Assembly: GCA_903851195.1 (NCBI GenBank)
Contig: CAINNJ010000020.1
Coordinates: 1 to 64,000, forward strand
DNA: 64,000 bases
Reading direction: 5' to 3'
Source: an uncultured Acidobacteriia bacterium
Lineage (GTDB): Bacteria > Acidobacteriota > Terriglobia > Bryobacterales > Bryobacteraceae
Below, piece after piece: positions 3,603 to 21,867 of this stretch (the first letter of the stretch is position 1; each line of letters opens with the position of its first letter). The notes beneath the pieces were generated by a model that was given only the letters and a program-made list of their open reading frames with translations, had not been told where the DNA came from and did not search any database. The position numbers and the translations under genes were made by a program.

Positions 3603-4567
3603 TCGCACCCATCCTGAAGGCACTCGCGACCGCGGCCAAACGCGAGCGCAAGTCCTTCGGCTCCTTCGCCACCAACAACCTCTTCCTCGCCGCCCTCGCG
3701 CTTCCCGGCGCCGGCGCCTTCGTCTTCCTCCTCGGCGCCCTCATCATCCTCTTCCCCCTGAGCGCGGACCCCCTCCGCAAGATCCCCGCCGACCGCCTCC
3801 CCCTCTGGCCCCTCTCGAAATCCGACCTCCGCAAACTGCGGATGCTCACGCCCTGGCTCAACCCGCTGACCTGGGCGCTCCTCGCCCTCACGCTTTGGAC
3901 CTTCCGCCACAACGAGAGCCTCGGAATCCTCGGCCTGCTCCTCTGCTTCTTCGCCATCGGCTTCTTCGCGCCCTCCTTCGGCGGAGGCGAGCCGTTCTGG
4001 CTGCGATGGCTTCCGGCCGGCCTCGTCGGCAAGAGCATCCGCGAGATGCTGCTGACACTCGACGTCTACGTCGCTCTGTTGCTGAGCCTCGCCTGCATGG
4101 CGTACCGTGTCACCATGCCGGCCTTACCGGCCGAAGCCATGATGGCGATGACGCTGCTCGTCGTCCTCGCCATCTCCAGCTACGCCCAGTGCCTGTTCGG
4201 TCTCGAATCGTCGGGCGGCCTCACGCGCTACCAGTTGCTGCCCCTGCCCGGCTGGCGCATCCTTGCCGCCAAGGACGTCGCGTACCTGTCGGTAGCCGTG
4301 ATCCTGACCCTGCCTCTGGCGCCTCTCGCCGGACTCGCCGGAGCGCTCACCGCCCTCACCTTCGGCCACGCCCCGTCCGTCGAAGAGCGCCGCGAGCAGA
4401 CCCGCTGGCGCTTCTCGAGCGGCGTTTCCATCCCGAAAGGCATCCTCCAGACCATCGCGATCGCAGGCGCCTGCGTTACCGCCTACCGCATCAGTCTGCT
4501 GATCCTGATCCCCTGCGCGCTCGCCTGCGCCGGCACCACCTGGTGGTACGGAAGGAAGTTGTGCTAA
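3599..4567 (+). CDS. Multi-pass membrane protein, probable ABC-transporter permease
   Basis: The protein of about 322 residues has several hydrophobic segments (for example near residues 40-60, 115-145, 170-190, 215-260 and 295-315). It directly follows and overlaps the ABC ATPase, so it is probably the membrane partner. I chose the GTG at 3599 because it gives a GTGA overlap with the upstream stop; an in-frame GTG at 3578 would add seven residues. No recognised permease motif is visible, and assignment rests on hydrophobicity and gene order. Its stop overlaps that of the convergent M20 peptidase gene by 4 bp. Confidence 0.75.
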   Translation: MIAPILKALATAAKRERKSFGSFATNNLFLAALALPGAGAFVFLLGALIILFPLSADPLRKIPADRLPLWPLSKSDLRKLRMLTPWLNPLTWALLALTLWTFRHNESLGILGLLLCFFAIGFFAPSFGGGEPFWLRWLPAGLVGKSIREMLLTLDVYVALLLSLACMAYRVTMPALPAEAMMAMTLLVVLAISSYAQCLFGLESSGGLTRYQLLPLPGWRILAAKDVAYLSVAVILTLPLAPLAGLAGALTALTFGHAPSVEERREQTRWRFSSGVSIPKGILQTIAIAGACVTAYRISLLILIPCALACAGTTWWYGRKLC

Positions 4568-5937
4568 GCCTTGGCGTACTCTTCGAAGAAGTGCGCCAGC
4601 GTCCGGATGCCATCGAAGTAGTTCCGGATGTTGTACTTCTCGTTCGGCGAGTGCAGCCCGTCGTCCGGCAGTCCGAAGCCCATCAGGATCGTCGGAATTC
4701 CCAGGTGGTTCGCGAAGTCGCCGACAATCGGAATCGACCCGCCCGAGCGCGTGAACACCGTCGGCGCCCCGAACACGTCGCTGAACGCTTTCGCCGCCAC
4801 GCGGATCGCCGGGTGGTCCGGATTCACCATCAGTCCCGGGCCCGCGCTGAGCACCCGAACCTCGAACACAAGGCCCTTCGGCGCATTGGCCTCCACGAAC
4901 TCCTTCACGGCCGCGATGATCGTCTCGGGCTGCTGCTTCGGCACCAGCCGGATGCTCACCTTCGCCACGGCCTTCGCGGGAATCACCGTCTTCGCGCCCG
5001 CGCCCGTGAAGCCGCCCGCAATCCCGTGGACCTCGAACGTCGGCCTCGCCCACGTCCGCTCGAACACCGAGTAGCCCGGCTCACCTGTCAGCGACGTCGA
5101 ACCGACCTCCGTCGCCAGATACTCCGCCTCGTCGAACGGCAGGTGCGTCCAGCTCTCCTTCTCTTCGGCCGACGGCGCTTCCACGTCGTCGTAAATCCCG
5201 GGGATCAGGATGTGCCCGTCCGCGTCCTTCGCCTTCGAGAGCAGTTCCACCAGCCCGAAAACCGCGTTCGGCGCCGCCCCGCCATAGAGCCCCGAGTGCA
5301 GATCGCGCGCCGGCCCTCTCGCCTCGATCTCCATGTACACCAGACCGCGCAGCCCGATGTTCAGTGTCGGCATGCCCGGCGCGTACATCTCCGTATCGGA
5401 CACCAGCGCCACGTCAGCCCTGAGCTTCTCCGGGTTCTTCGCCACATACTCGGCGACCGACACGCCGCCCACTTCCTCTTCGCCTTCGAGCAGAAACTTC
5501 AGGTTGACCGGAGGCTTGCCCTGCACCGCCCGCAGCGCCTCGATCGCCTTGATGTGCGAATACATTTGCCCCTTGTCGTCCGCCGAGCCGCGCGCATAGA
5601 GGTTCCCGTTGCGCTCCGCGGGCTCGAACGGCGGCGTTTCCCACAGTTCCAGAGGATCGGGCGGCTGCACGTCGAAGTGGCCGTAGCAGAGCACCGTCGG
5701 CTTGTCCGGCGCGTGCAGCCAGTCGGCGTACACCAGCGGATGCCGTTCCGTCTCGATAATCTCCACGTTCTCCATTCCCGCGCCGCGGAGTTTATCCGCG
5801 ACGTACTCCGCGGCACGGTGCGTGTCCCCGTTGTGCTCGGGAAGAGTCGATATGCTCGGGATGCGGAGCAGCTCTTTCAGTTCCTCCAGAAAGCGCGCTT
5901 CATTCTCACTGACGTAGCGGTCGATAGATGCAGACAT
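4564..5937 (-). CDS. M20-family metallodipeptidase
   Basis: This 457-residue zinc dipeptidase belongs to the M20 (ArgE/DapE/carnosinase-like) family and probably acts in the cytoplasm, as no signal peptide is seen. The metal-site motifs are clear: CYGHFDVQPP (His87, Asp89), ARGSADDKGQM, the catalytic LLEGEEEVGG pair of glutamates, and a C-terminal HSPNEKY. The ATG at 5937 was chosen because MSASIDRYV starts the family-like N-terminus; the frame is open for 19 more codons upstream. It is divergent from the DUF4143 ATPase gene, and the intervening palindrome (5995-6029) could affect both promoters. Confidence 0.92.
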   Translation of the reverse strand: MSASIDRYVSENEARFLEELKELLRIPSISTLPEHNGDTHRAAEYVADKLRGAGMENVEIIETERHPLVYADWLHAPDKPTVLCYGHFDVQPPDPLELWETPPFEPAERNGNLYARGSADDKGQMYSHIKAIEALRAVQGKPPVNLKFLLEGEEEVGGVSVAEYVAKNPEKLRADVALVSDTEMYAPGMPTLNIGLRGLVYMEIEARGPARDLHSGLYGGAAPNAVFGLVELLSKAKDADGHILIPGIYDDVEAPSAEEKESWTHLPFDEAEYLATEVGSTSLTGEPGYSVFERTWARPTFEVHGIAGGFTGAGAKTVIPAKAVAKVSIRLVPKQQPETIIAAVKEFVEANAPKGLVFEVRVLSAGPGLMVNPDHPAIRVAAKAFSDVFGAPTVFTRSGGSIPIVGDFANHLGIPTILMGFGLPDDGLHSPNEKYNIRNYFDGIRTLAHFFEEYAKA

Positions 5938-5994
5938 GGGCTTCGATCCCAGAGTATCGCGCCCGGAACGGCCGTGCCGCGGCCGATATCTCAT

Positions 5995-6029
5995 TTGAGA
6001 AATTTAAAGTCGTACTTTAAACTTCTCAA
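5995..6029. promoter_or_regulatory. AT-rich palindrome directly upstream of the DUF4143 ATPase
   Basis: Two 16-base arms match at 15 of 16 positions: the left arm TTGAGAAATTTAAAGT (5995-6010), a 3-base centre cgt, and the right arm ending one base before the ATG at 6031. Such AT-rich sequence stands out in this GC-rich chromosome. It occupies the position where a ribosome-binding site would be, and no Shine-Dalgarno sequence is visible. It shares the core TTTAAAGT-N3-ACTTTAAA with the palindrome at the end of the same gene. It may be an operator or an RNA hairpin; its function is inferred. Confidence 0.7.
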
Positions 6030-6030
6030 T

Positions 6031-7209
6031 ATGAACTTCATTGCCCGATCCATCAGCGCCACCGTCATTCAGGCCGCCAGAAACTTTCCGGCGGTGGTAG
6101 TGACAGGGCCGCGCCGGGCCGGCAAGACGACGGTGCTGCGCCGCGCCTTTCCCAAAGCGCGCTATGTGCTTCTCGAGGATCCCGATGTCCGGAACCGCGC
6201 GAAGGCCGATCCCCGCGGCCTGCTCGACGAGAACGAGCCGCCGGTCCTCTTCGACGAGATCCAGAACGTGCCGGAGCTGTTCGGCTATATCAGAACGCGC
6301 ATCGACCAGCGGCCGCGGGAGACCGGCCGCTGGCTGTTCACGGGCTCGCAGGAGGCGCCCCTGATGCAGGGCGTGAGCGAGTCCATGGCGGGCCGCGCGG
6401 CCATCCTGCAGATGCTTCCCCTCAGCCTCGCGGAGACTCCGAAAGCAACCCTGCTCCTCGGAGGTTTCCCGGAGGTTCTGGCCCGGCCCGCGAACCGCGC
6501 GCTGTGGTTCAGTTCCTATGTCCAGACTTACCTCGAGCGCGACGTTCGAGCTGTCGCCAACGTCAAAGACCTCGGAACGTTTCGCCGTTTTCTGGCGCTG
6601 GTCGCCAGCCGCCACGGAAGCGCGCTGAACCGAACGGATCTCGCGTCGCCCCTCGGCGTCTCCGTTCCCACCGTGAGCCAGTGGATCCACATCCTGGAGG
6701 TCACGGGACAGATCATTCTGGTGCCGCCGTATTTCGATAACTTCGGCAAGCGGCTGACGAAATCCCCCAAACTCTATATCGGCGATTCCGGCCTTGCGTG
6801 TTATCTGCTTGGCATTACTTCTCAGGCGGAGCTTGAGCGGTCGCCTTTTCTCGGCGCGATCTTCGAAGGTTTCGTGGCCACCGAGATCATCAAGAGCCAG
6901 GTGAATCGGGGACAAAGGAGAGAGCTTTACTTCTTCCGGGATCAGCAGGGTCTGGAGGTCGATTTTCTCTTCCCCGGACCCAAGGGAAATCTCTGGCTCG
7001 TCGAGTGCAAAGCTTCCCGGACGGTGGAGCCCCGCATGGCCGCTCCGATGGTTGCCCTGCGAAATTCCATGGCCCATCGGACCCGGCCCAGGCTTACAGT
7101 TGTTCACCGGGCGTCGAGAACCTCCGCGCCCGGAAACGCTGTCCTGCCGGGCGCGGAAGCGCTCGATATCGCCGCTTTCTCGACCGCCCTTTACGGAGGA
7201 AGGGTTTGA
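6031..7209 (+). CDS. AAA+ ATPase with DUF4143 and nuclease-like C-terminus
   Basis: This 392-residue protein is of the AAA-14/DUF4143 type. The N-terminal P-loop is GPRRAGKT (residues 26-33), with Walker B PPVLFDEIQN near residue 70 and a sensor-like FTGSQEAPLM. A winged-helix-like stretch (SPLGVSVPTVSQWIHILE) is followed by a C-terminal LEVDFLFPG and LVECKAS, which resembles a PD-(D/E)xK nuclease core. These proteins are common, mobile and poorly understood. The ATG at 6031 fits the family N-terminus, although the same frame is open far upstream through antisense sequence. The gene stands alone, bracketed exactly by two related palindromes, the second of which includes its stop codon. Confidence 0.88.
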   Translation: MNFIARSISATVIQAARNFPAVVVTGPRRAGKTTVLRRAFPKARYVLLEDPDVRNRAKADPRGLLDENEPPVLFDEIQNVPELFGYIRTRIDQRPRETGRWLFTGSQEAPLMQGVSESMAGRAAILQMLPLSLAETPKATLLLGGFPEVLARPANRALWFSSYVQTYLERDVRAVANVKDLGTFRRFLALVASRHGSALNRTDLASPLGVSVPTVSQWIHILEVTGQIILVPPYFDNFGKRLTKSPKLYIGDSGLACYLLGITSQAELERSPFLGAIFEGFVATEIIKSQVNRGQRRELYFFRDQQGLEVDFLFPGPKGNLWLVECKASRTVEPRMAAPMVALRNSMAHRTRPRLTVVHRASRTSAPGNAVLPGAEALDIAAFSTALYGGRV

Positions 7210-7242
7210 GTTTTTTAAAGTTGAACTTTAAAAAACTCAAAC
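7204..7242. terminator. Perfect 39-base palindrome spanning the DUF4143 gene stop
   Basis: The arms GTTTGAGTTTTTTAAAGTT (7204-7222) and its exact reverse complement (7224-7242) flank a single base. The left arm contains the TGA stop (7207-7209). The core TTTAAAGT-N3-ACTTTAAA (7214-7232) repeats that of the palindrome upstream of the gene (6003-6021). It could terminate transcription for either direction, since it lies between convergent genes, or be a protein-binding site or mobile-unit end. Confidence 0.65.
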
Positions 7243-7255
7243 GCACCCGGAGCCT

Positions 7256-8449
7256 TCAGAAGAGCAGAACGGCCATCCGGCCGTCGGTCTGCAGGGCATC
7301 GCCGGTCGCGTTTTCAATAGTCGCGGGAACGTCCGGCCGCTCCACCAGAGCCACCGATTTCACCAAACCCGTGAAGAGCAGATCGGCCACTACCTTGGCG
7401 CGCTCCCGGTCGATCCGTCCATCGACTTTGTGAATGAAGGTGCGGTCGCGTTCGGAAAAATCGATGCCCGTATCGTGCGTCGACGAGCAGACCCAGACAG
7501 GCTTCCCGGCGAACGTGTCGGGCCTGCGAAAGATCCGCAGGTGATGGCGCTGCGCGAAGGTGTTATTGCCCTTCTGCATCGCCATCTCCGGAGGCTGGTT
7601 ATCCAGCAGCAGCACCGACATGGGGCCTTCTTTGTAGCCGCGGTCTTCGATGATGGCTCTGGCGGTCTCCATCTTCGAAGTGGCGCTCAGCTTCGCGGCG
7701 GACGACCAGCCGGCTTTCTCAAACGCGGCGCGCAGTTCTTCTTCCGTTCCGATGAACATGATATTCGTCATGTCGGAGGGTTTGGGTGGCTTCGCGGCCA
7801 CCGTGCGGAACGGTTGCCGGTTCACCAGATCGGCCAGAGACGCCTCATTCGGAAAGGGCTGCAGCCGCGCCTCGGGACCGGTCGTCGATCCCGTCCAGTT
7901 CAGTGCAGCGGTAAGCTTCAGGGTCAGCTCGACCCCGGCGTCGTAATCGATATTGGCGTTCACGTCCCCGATTTTCAGCGTCTGCTTCGCGCCCTGCAGA
8001 ATGGTGGCGAGAGCGGAAAACTTCTCGTTTGTTTCCAGCTTCGCGATGCCCTGGTTCAGCCGCGATCCGTAAGCCTGCGAAGGGTCGATACCCGTAATGA
8101 CGCCCTTGTCGTCGAGGGCTTCGCGCGCGTTCTCCAGCCCGCTCACGGTGGCCGCGACGGGCACTTTTACTTTGCCGTCCGAGATCTCCGAAAAAACGAG
8201 CTGCAGTTGCGCGCGATCCGTCCCGGTCGCTGCTTTCGCCAGTTTGACGGAGCCCGACAAAACCGGTCCGGCCGGCAGGACCACCTTGTCGTTCAGAACC
8301 ACCGGCGCAATCACGGTCGCGTGGAAGGTTTGCGGCGTGGTCACTTCGCTCGACACTTTATCGTTCAGGCGAATACTGATCTCCGTGCCGGCCGGAATCT
8401 GCGCGGCGAACGCAGGCGCGATCAGAACTGCCAGGAACGCGAACTTCAT
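7256..8449 (-). CDS. Secreted protein with LssY C-terminal-like domain
   Basis: This 397-residue protein has a signal peptide (MKFAFLAVLIAPAFAAQ), so it is probably exported. Residues about 20-190 are a beta-rich region beginning IPAGTEISIRLNDKV, as in secreted acidobacterial proteins. Residues about 225-375 match my recollection of the LssY_C domain, with IMFIGTEEELRAAFEKAGW, then NTFAQRHHLRIFR and VWVCSSTHDTGI. LssY_C occurs in membrane phosphatase proteins; here it is fused to a soluble exported module instead. The role is unknown. The start overlaps the stop of the upstream gene by 4 bp, so both are likely translated from one mRNA. Confidence 0.75.
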   Translation of the reverse strand: MKFAFLAVLIAPAFAAQIPAGTEISIRLNDKVSSEVTTPQTFHATVIAPVVLNDKVVLPAGPVLSGSVKLAKAATGTDRAQLQLVFSEISDGKVKVPVAATVSGLENAREALDDKGVITGIDPSQAYGSRLNQGIAKLETNEKFSALATILQGAKQTLKIGDVNANIDYDAGVELTLKLTAALNWTGSTTGPEARLQPFPNEASLADLVNRQPFRTVAAKPPKPSDMTNIMFIGTEEELRAAFEKAGWSSAAKLSATSKMETARAIIEDRGYKEGPMSVLLLDNQPPEMAMQKGNNTFAQRHHLRIFRRPDTFAGKPVWVCSSTHDTGIDFSERDRTFIHKVDGRIDRERAKVVADLLFTGLVKSVALVERPDVPATIENATGDALQTDGRMAVLLF

Positions 8450-21814: not shown

Positions 21815-21867
21815 ACCCGAACCGGATGTCCCGATCTCGCTTTGAGATCGGACCATCCGGTTCGGGT
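21815..21867. terminator. Long hairpin between convergent genes
   Basis: The stem pairs ACCCGAACCGGATG (21815-21828) with CATCCGGTTCGGGT (21854-21867), and CCGATCTC (21831-21838) with GAGATCGG (21844-21851), leaving a two-base mismatch and a 5-base loop. A TTTT follows at 21870-21873. It lies between the stop of the large secreted protein and the stop of the DUF1501 gene, so it is probably a terminator for the former and perhaps for both. Confidence 0.85.

Follow-up and report, generated by a model that had tools for sequence, protein, structure and literature searches.

A palindrome at the start codon as the probable autoregulatory operator-promoter of a horizontally moving single-gene ATPase-nuclease unit

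The question raised by this locus is what two related AT-rich palindromes do at the two ends of one ATPase gene in GC-rich DNA. The window, i.e., the whole stretch of 64,000 nucleotides that was analyzed, contains the following features at this place:

4564..5994, minus strand: left neighbor, M20 peptidase ORF; marker of the empty site in relatives
5995..6029, no strand: 5' palindrome, 35 bp, ending one base 5' of the ATG; candidate operator-promoter
6031..7209, plus strand: AAA_14-DUF4143 ATPase-nuclease gene, 392 amino acids; matches the PADLOC PDC-S01 models
7204..7242, no strand: 3' palindrome, 39 bp, perfect, taking in the stop codon; second copy of the site
7256..8449, minus strand: right neighbor, LssY_C-domain protein; marks the empty site in relatives

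The initial annotation had described a near-perfect 35-base palindrome one base before the ATG, a perfect 39-base palindrome that takes in the stop codon, a common core with a TTGAG outer part, and an AT-richness out of keeping with the surroundings, and each of these points was borne out. The 5' palindrome is of the type TTGAG-N5-TAAAGT-N3-ACTTTA-N5-CTCAA and forms 12 of 13 core stem pairs; the arms of the 3' palindrome (7204-7222 and 7224-7242) are 100% complementary, with the TGA at 7207-7209 lying inside. Common to both are TTTAAAGT-N3-ACTTTAAA and the outer TTGAG/CTCAA, and their A+T contents of 74% (5') and 77% (3') stand in DNA of 59-65% G+C. The two palindromes scored 13 (5') and 19 (3'), compared with best scores in 60 single-base shuffles of the window of 14 (once) and then 12 (five times), so the 5' palindrome is rare and the 3' palindrome is far beyond chance. 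Both fold well as single strands (folding z-scores of -5.9 to -7.2). The core, with up to two mismatches, was present at only these two sites in the 7,722,420 bases scanned of its own genome, and comparison of the 3' palindrome with that of a same-genus ortholog (G009) revealed a compensated T-A to A-T double change that kept the palindrome. The sole other palindrome of the window to score at least 13 is a 53-nt near-perfect inverted repeat at 21815-21867.

Pfam analysis of the 392-residue ORF identified two domains only, AAA_14 (1.1e-24) and DUF4143 (1.2e-45), and the best match to the PADLOC PDC-S01 models was at 1.7e-98. By these sequence matches the gene is a member of the AAA_14-DUF4143/PDC-S01 defence-candidate family and possibly a candidate virus-defence gene. 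The protein is divided as follows:

6085..6435, plus strand: AAA_14 domain; Walker A G26..G31-K32-T33, Walker B D75-E76
6571..6780, plus strand: helix-turn-helix/wing-like region, residues 181-250, candidate DNA reader; putative assignment from AlphaFold2 secondary structure
6787..7206, plus strand: PD-(D/E)XK-type nuclease domain, residues 253-392; E279, D311, E325-x-K327

In 71 aligned sequences K32, D75, D311, and K327 were present in all 71, and E76, E279, and E325 were each present in 70. The AlphaFold2 model, built with the 71 aligned homologs (pLDDT 94.3, pTM 0.93), can be read as an AAA+ ATPase, a helix-turn-helix/wing-like middle (residues 181-250), and a nuclease-type end. Foldseek matches in the PDB began with the Pyrococcus ATPase 2qen, followed by the Card1 nuclease and then by RuvB and Orc1/Cdc6 among others; AAA+/WH structures are thus present among the matches of the model.

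The association of palindrome and gene was assessed in 61 genomes (the genome of the window, G000, and 60 relatives) by a protein search in which a close homolog was defined by E ≤4e-143 and by a scan for the palindrome pattern with one mismatch allowed. Close homologs were found in 9 of the 61 genomes and the pattern in 8, all within those nine; in the ninth (G035), the contig ended before the 5' end of the gene was reached. The reversed pattern, used as control, had no match in any of the 61 genomes. The eight genomes contain 15 distinct palindrome sites, of which 14 adjoin the gene and one (G031:C77) is solo. A dispersed REP-like repeat was considered and rejected on the two sites in the own genome and on the location of nearly all sites in the 61 genomes beside the gene. 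Two further gene-first searches (E ≤1e-140) covered 399 genomes of one order and 396 of the same phylum and showed a patchy distribution, with the gene in 5 and 8 genomes, respectively, centre genomes counted in. The 11 further loci that these searches yielded beyond the two known centres, one of which (L296) is the locus also found palindrome-first as L084, all bear the palindrome at the start codon (18-24 of 24 consensus positions). The start-codon palindrome is therefore present in 19 of 19 testable gene-first genes (8 plus 11), the window gene included. No close homolog without the palindrome, the kind of gene that the initial annotation had named as speaking against it, occurs among these 19; only a 5'-truncated copy (G118) has lost the site.

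When genome contigs were scanned with the palindrome only, at least 116 loci were obtained, and among those listed 84 have a homolog, four more have a gene fragment, and 32 have no HMM-detected gene; in 74 a strong homolog has the palindrome within 400 bp of one of its ends. After the removal of duplicate views from the counts (L001-L003, L064, L069, L103, L127, L135, and L146, which are the same loci as L006-L013), the palindrome stands at the start codon in 70 of the loci listed. Downstream copies are fewer, 14 by the strict criterion and 16 at a looser score among the loci listed, and in eight listed loci, by hand count, the second palindrome lies further upstream instead, 56-178 bp from the first and with no obvious helical phase. 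The description of the gene as exactly bracketed thus fits the window gene but not the family in general, in which the site at the start codon is the constant element and the 3' palindrome belongs to a minority. Eight acidobacterial loci linked by common flanks (L037, L045, L084, L091, L117, L136, L143, and L149) all kept the downstream palindrome, at distances that vary, and this points to a functional site more than to a scar of insertion, although, having been found palindrome-first, they are not an unbiased count. In L115 (222-525) a palindrome is closely followed by only the last part of the gene (residues ∼303-390), perhaps an internal-deletion derivative.

The constant palindrome coincides with a promoter-like region. 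A scan of 5900-7300 gave two promoter-like sites (0.2 expected), one on each strand of the 5' palindrome:

5995..6023, plus strand: sigma-70-like promoter TTGAGA-17-TAAACT within the 5' palindrome; 9 of 12 consensus matches
6001..6029, minus strand: mirror sigma-70-like promoter TTGAGA-17-TAAATT, directed at the M20 peptidase gene

The same layout recurs among the loci listed, where columns 1-6 and 24-29 of the palindrome read TTGAGW and TAKAAT at 17-bp spacing and 62 of 69 proximal palindromes end 0-2 nt before an in-frame start codon. The −10 element of these 69 matched better on the strand of the gene (mean 4.87 of 6) than on the opposite strand (4.13, Wilcoxon p 1e-7), and also better than palindromes located elsewhere did on the better of their two strands (4.38, p 2e-4). 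The promoter, predicted by its match to the sigma-70 consensus, would place the transcript start at 6030/6031, at or beside the A of the ATG, and the mRNA is probably leaderless. The mirror site at 6001-6029 faces the M20 peptidase gene, and the unit may accordingly affect expression of its neighbor.

This predicted transcript start bears on the suggestion, made in the initial annotation, that the palindromes are paired RNA hairpins, with the 3' copy as terminator or stabilizer and the 5' copy in the leader. Both do fold well single-stranded and the 3' copy straddles the stop codon; the 5' palindrome, however, lies upstream of the predicted start, the 3' copy is not followed by a U-run, a terminator scan gave only another stem (1 found, 1.4 expected), and in the eight loci mentioned above both copies are upstream of the gene. 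Identity with a known RNA family was rejected, as nothing matched in Rfam at the gathering score. We regard RNA hairpins as very improbable here.

Palindromes also occur at other members of the family. Of 36 DUF4143 genes lacking this core upstream, 17 are preceded within 110 bp by a strong palindrome, compared with 28 of 600 control ORFs drawn from 718 with first-ATG starts (Mann-Whitney p 2e-10), and the remaining 19 have no strong palindrome at the start; the 36 include two genes of the window subfamily, L040, whose palindrome is further upstream and which counts among the 17, and the 5'-truncated L255. The second DUF4143 gene of the own genome (paralog L004) carries a palindrome, CCTTGCAA...TTGCAAGG, that ends just before its ATG. 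One genome (G038) has 21 DUF4143 matches, and 4 of the 13 with a locatable start bear strong palindromes, all four different. Several loci contain adjoining DUF4143 genes like small nests (L058, 2746-6812; L098, 1410-4035; and L092), with different palindromes at two of the gene starts in L058.

These other palindromes weigh on the possibility that the site belongs to a host protein, or is a plain strong promoter, rather than being bound by the product of the gene. Its sigma-70-promoter look in genomes of many phyla fits such a role. A host factor would nonetheless be expected to have other sites, whereas this palindrome is nearly private to the gene and other DUF4143 genes bear other palindromes; moreover, a promoter needs neither 13-bp symmetric arms nor a second copy past the stop codon. 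We consider a host site or simple promoter improbable.

The symmetry itself has been kept while the sequence changed. Among the loci listed, 52 palindromes lie away from start codons (second upstream, downstream, or solo), and the search pattern leaves their positions 6-10 free, apart from a Y/R preference at 10/26 in the scored sets. These positions pair in 195 of 260 cells; the expectation was 130 (sd 8.1), the largest value in 5,000 shuffles was 157, and z was 8.1. For the 69 proximal palindromes listed, 221 of 345 cells at these positions pair versus 178.6 expected (z 5.6). In a separate pair count, with shuffles that do not preserve relatedness, 91.3% of cells were paired versus 83.4% in shuffles, and 68 double-changed cells were still paired versus 33.4 (0 of 500 shuffles as high). 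Two of the five pair-count measures were not clearly above the shuffles (double-change pairs, 5 versus 4.9; 12 pair types, a number reached by 25 of 500 shuffles), and every measure fell when the partner arm was slid out of register. The 19 gene-first palindromes have six fixed-pair cells that changed on both sides yet remain paired (0.63 expected), i.e., two in L291 (TGAG/CTCA to TGCA/TGCA), two in L298 (GGTG/CACC), and one G-T pair common to L292 and L293; because the latter two are related, the six cells count as three lineages. Eight other deviating cells in this set are unpaired or changed on one side only. Co-change of the arms could reflect either a symmetric dimer site or a folded DNA hairpin. 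A comparison of two palindromes of one gene (3.80 within a palindrome versus 3.30 between the two, n = 20, p = 0.07) leaned to the hairpin, short of significance.

AT-rich palindromes do arise by chance, and the 32 gene-less sites among the at least 116 palindrome-first loci might suggest chance or relic symmetry without function. Against this stand the position, the co-change, and, strongly, the linkage to the gene, in genomes that bear the labels of 14 phyla. A chance origin was rejected on the two-site privacy, the genome linkage, the arm co-change, and the gene-first test, and a functionless relic is scarcely credible.

Comparison of relatives indicates that palindrome and gene come and go together. 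Seventeen genomes of the genus have a close M20 homolog. In G000 and G009 the gene lies between the M20 and LssY_C genes with both palindromes present; in G011 and G002 the two neighbors adjoin, a few dozen bases apart, with neither gene nor palindrome, consistent with empty sites; the other 13 have neither the gene nor LssY_C in the stretch compared. The initial annotation had proposed a search for empty sites in close relatives, and they were found both here and in Reyranella, where at least 30 loci were available and seven were compared closely. At one intergenic site of Reyranella, G090, G098, and G100 are empty, G133 has the gene, and G118 has a gene copy without palindrome and start; the site holds a solo palindrome in G070 and, in G062, a solo palindrome beside an unrelated 1.6-kb stretch. 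The gain/loss junction in G133 is ∼91 bp upstream of the palindrome. Among Thermus thermophilus plasmids, those of JL-18, SNM6-6, and SNM1-7 carry a distant family member that those of AA2-20, HB8, and HB27 lack; its left junction lies ∼78 bp before the palindrome, so that ends exact to the palindrome are not supported there, and its right junction abuts a CRISPR array. In these megaplasmids (L282, L287, and L288 with the gene, versus L284, L285, and L286 without it) the DUF4143 gene stands by the CRISPR array with a 19-bp palindrome near its ATG.

Copies in unrelated flanks define the unit more sharply. Five pairs of at least 80% identity (L041/L134, L055/L147, L055/L071, L057/L092, and L059/L114) represent four independent sets, since L055, L071, and L147 are one trio that gives two pairs, L055 being cut at its 3' end; two pairs with L087, the same locus as L114, were removed from the profile. 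Over the five, nucleotide identity fell from 88-98% in the palindrome to 84% in the first 5 bases upstream of it, 48% in the 5 bases preceding those, and ∼30% farther out. Boundary sharpness was counted only for such unrelated-flank pairs because five flank-sharing pairs also show low ungapped identity outside the palindrome. In L292/L293 (87.7%), which have no flank protein in common, the unit extends from one base upstream of the palindrome to five bases past the stop codon; across the unrelated-flank pairs its start lies 1-8 bases (once 19-21) upstream of the palindrome and its end 3-5 bases past the stop or, in L059/L114, exactly where the 3' palindrome ends. L057/L092 is a pair from a betaproteobacterium and a Nitrospira, by the labels as submitted. 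Any flank protein in common was found for 43 of 2415 locus pairs, and 27 phylum changes are required on a tree of 69 proteins for which the minimum is 13, with submitters' phylum labels and with paralogy as a caveat. These comparisons support the gain and loss of the gene as one horizontally moving single-gene unit. A phage origin was rejected: a slightly looser pattern matched two viral contigs, neither with the gene, and the phage collection contained distant homologs only, in 12 records. A 1.25-kb stretch of 87% identity between L036 (1534-2786) and L071 (81-1332), with no other long match among the best matches listed, is possibly another horizontally moving gene.

Palindromes without such genes, the other finding that the initial annotation had expected to count against it, do exist. 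Some of the 32 gene-less loci resemble coding sequence or unrelated hairpins; for 19 the search was extended to the genome, and 13 were left out (four fragments, the rest by eye chance hairpins, coding matches, or sites cut at the locus edge). Two of the 19 genomes have a close gene elsewhere, four have a distant paralog only, and 13 have none at E 1e-60, an absence that is not proof because many are metagenome bins. The 17 genomes without a close gene have one palindrome each. Two solo sites could be compared with relatives, L105 (with L244) and the Reyranella site in G070, and both look like remnants after gene loss. L105 had been considered as a pre-insertion site, which was rejected when fuller comparison revealed an apparent remnant of the 5' end of the gene, read as a deletion. 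In two acidobacterial genomes without the close gene, a solo palindrome lies at the matching place between convergent ORFs (L094:5545-5577 and L118:662-694).

The boundaries bring in a further alternative, namely that the palindromes act as structural DNA, hairpin or cruciform, which the product of the gene recognizes as the boundary for cutting and joining the unit; this would make it a new class of single-gene mobile element. Units in unrelated flanks start near the palindrome and end just past the stop or at the 3' palindrome, a folded hairpin accounts for the co-changing arms at variable positions no less well than a dimer site does, the PD-(D/E)XK residues are kept in 70 or 71 of 71 sequences, and the distribution is patchy. 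On the other side, no target-site duplication was seen (the flanks of the own empty site being too diverged), most copies have no 3' palindrome, and the Reyranella and Thermus junctions are ∼91 and ∼78 bp upstream of the palindrome. Neither of the two genomes examined has near-identical copies at more than one place: G000 has one close-subfamily copy only, and in G038 no alignment longer than 300 bp exceeded 69% identity among the 21 DUF4143 matches, giving no sign of recent copying; the single site in each of the 17 solo genomes points the same way. The earlier idea of a mobile single-gene unit thus holds for horizontal presence and absence, empty sites, and sharp units in unrelated flanks; transposon-like ends recognized by the product of the gene are its less probable part. 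We view a structural boundary as a possible but doubtful function of the palindromes.

The reading that we favor, and hold to be probable, is that the 5' palindrome is an autoregulatory operator-promoter on a horizontally moving single-gene ATPase-nuclease unit. That a palindrome at the start codon travels with the gene between distant bacteria suggests that it is probably the self-control of the gene. The unit would consist of one promoter, one leaderless ORF (AAA+ ATPase, winged-helix-like region, and PD-(D/E)XK nuclease of the PDC-S01 family), and a palindromic site to which the product of the gene itself most likely binds. The palindrome overlies the −35/−10 elements at the start codon, and a symmetric protein assembly on it would thus shut off or tune expression. 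The second palindrome, 3' here and upstream in some relatives, may be an auxiliary site that strengthens repression, e.g., by looping. Since each subfamily has a different palindrome, several units could coexist in a genome without cross-talk. Weighing against this reading are the fit of the arm pairing to a folded hairpin, the absence of a helical phase between paired upstream sites, the solo palindromes of 17 of 19 genomes that lack the close gene, and the 19 of 36 other DUF4143 genes with no strong palindrome at the start. Among the earlier suggestions an autoregulatory operator pair is thus the best supported, by the promoter overlap, the private site, and the palindromes of other DUF4143 genes, but binding by the product is only inferred.

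The family is prominent in surveys of defence. In the available part of one survey, PDC-S01 is the fourth most common defence across prokaryotes, and validation is pending for most such candidates (PMC12988326), which places the family among the commonest prokaryotic defence candidates. A Thermus AAA_14/DUF4143 gene had 6.6-fold more RNA in plasmid-bearing cells, only with TtAgo present, and the authors, in the portion of the paper available, tie this rise to TtAgo (PMC4406477); that gene is outside the subfamily of the window gene, as far as tested. The accessible text of two further papers merely counts the family (PMC13356809 and PMC10782964). No palindromes at AAA_14-DUF4143 genes were found in the literature searched, which left out most subscription papers and all preprints and was silent on the control and movement of the family. 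The start-codon palindrome with its promoter-like region, together with the other palindromes at other DUF4143 genes, is real and general, and apparently unreported in that literature. From it follow predictions of the binding site in each subfamily and of the transcript start, a way to test self-regulation, and a sequence tag with which family members and empty sites can be found without protein annotation. Were the palindrome to serve as a structural boundary as well, the family would amount to a new single-gene mobile unit and not an ordinary defence gene. A tentative extension, which we rate as rather unlikely, is that PDC-S01 is a new class of minimal mobile unit, a leaderless gene with promoter, operator, and structural boundary in one palindrome, each subfamily having its own so that one cell could house many units, that would be read as hairpin or cruciform by the AAA+/winged-helix/nuclease product of the gene.

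Among described systems the closest is PDC-S01 itself, the single-gene phage-defence candidate of PADLOC, which is the same protein family, an AAA+ ATPase fused to a PD-(D/E)XK nuclease; the available part of its published account has no word on palindromes, promoter layout, or unit boundaries. The first structural matches, the Pyrococcus abyssi Walker-type ATPase PABY2304 (2qen) and the Card1 nuclease, have 10-16% identity and modest TM-scores, and we know of no palindrome data for either. Insertion sequences and transposons resemble the unit in leaving empty sites in relatives; a repeat at both ends is found only here and in a minority of loci. REP/RAYT and IS200/IS605 elements have a single gene beside conserved palindromes, and solo palindromes occur, as they do here; unlike them, the window unit has no transposase domain (no Y1) by Pfam, and its palindromes are not dispersed through the genome. 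Integron gene cassettes are likewise single-gene units with a folded-palindrome site (attC), whereas the constant palindrome of the window unit is 5' and promoter-like and AAA_14 and DUF4143 are the only domains that its protein matched. Autoregulated selfish or defence modules of the toxin-antitoxin type are compact and horizontally moving, with a private palindromic operator over the promoter, and the window unit is like them in its private palindromic promoter site, its compactness, and its horizontal movement. No toxin-antitoxin gene pair was found at this locus, where the neighbors encode the M20 peptidase and the LssY_C protein on the opposite strand, and the neighbors vary from copy to copy. 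The unit differs from these modules in having one gene, in encoding an AAA+/nuclease protein rather than a small antitoxin repressor, and in a start codon that abuts the site.
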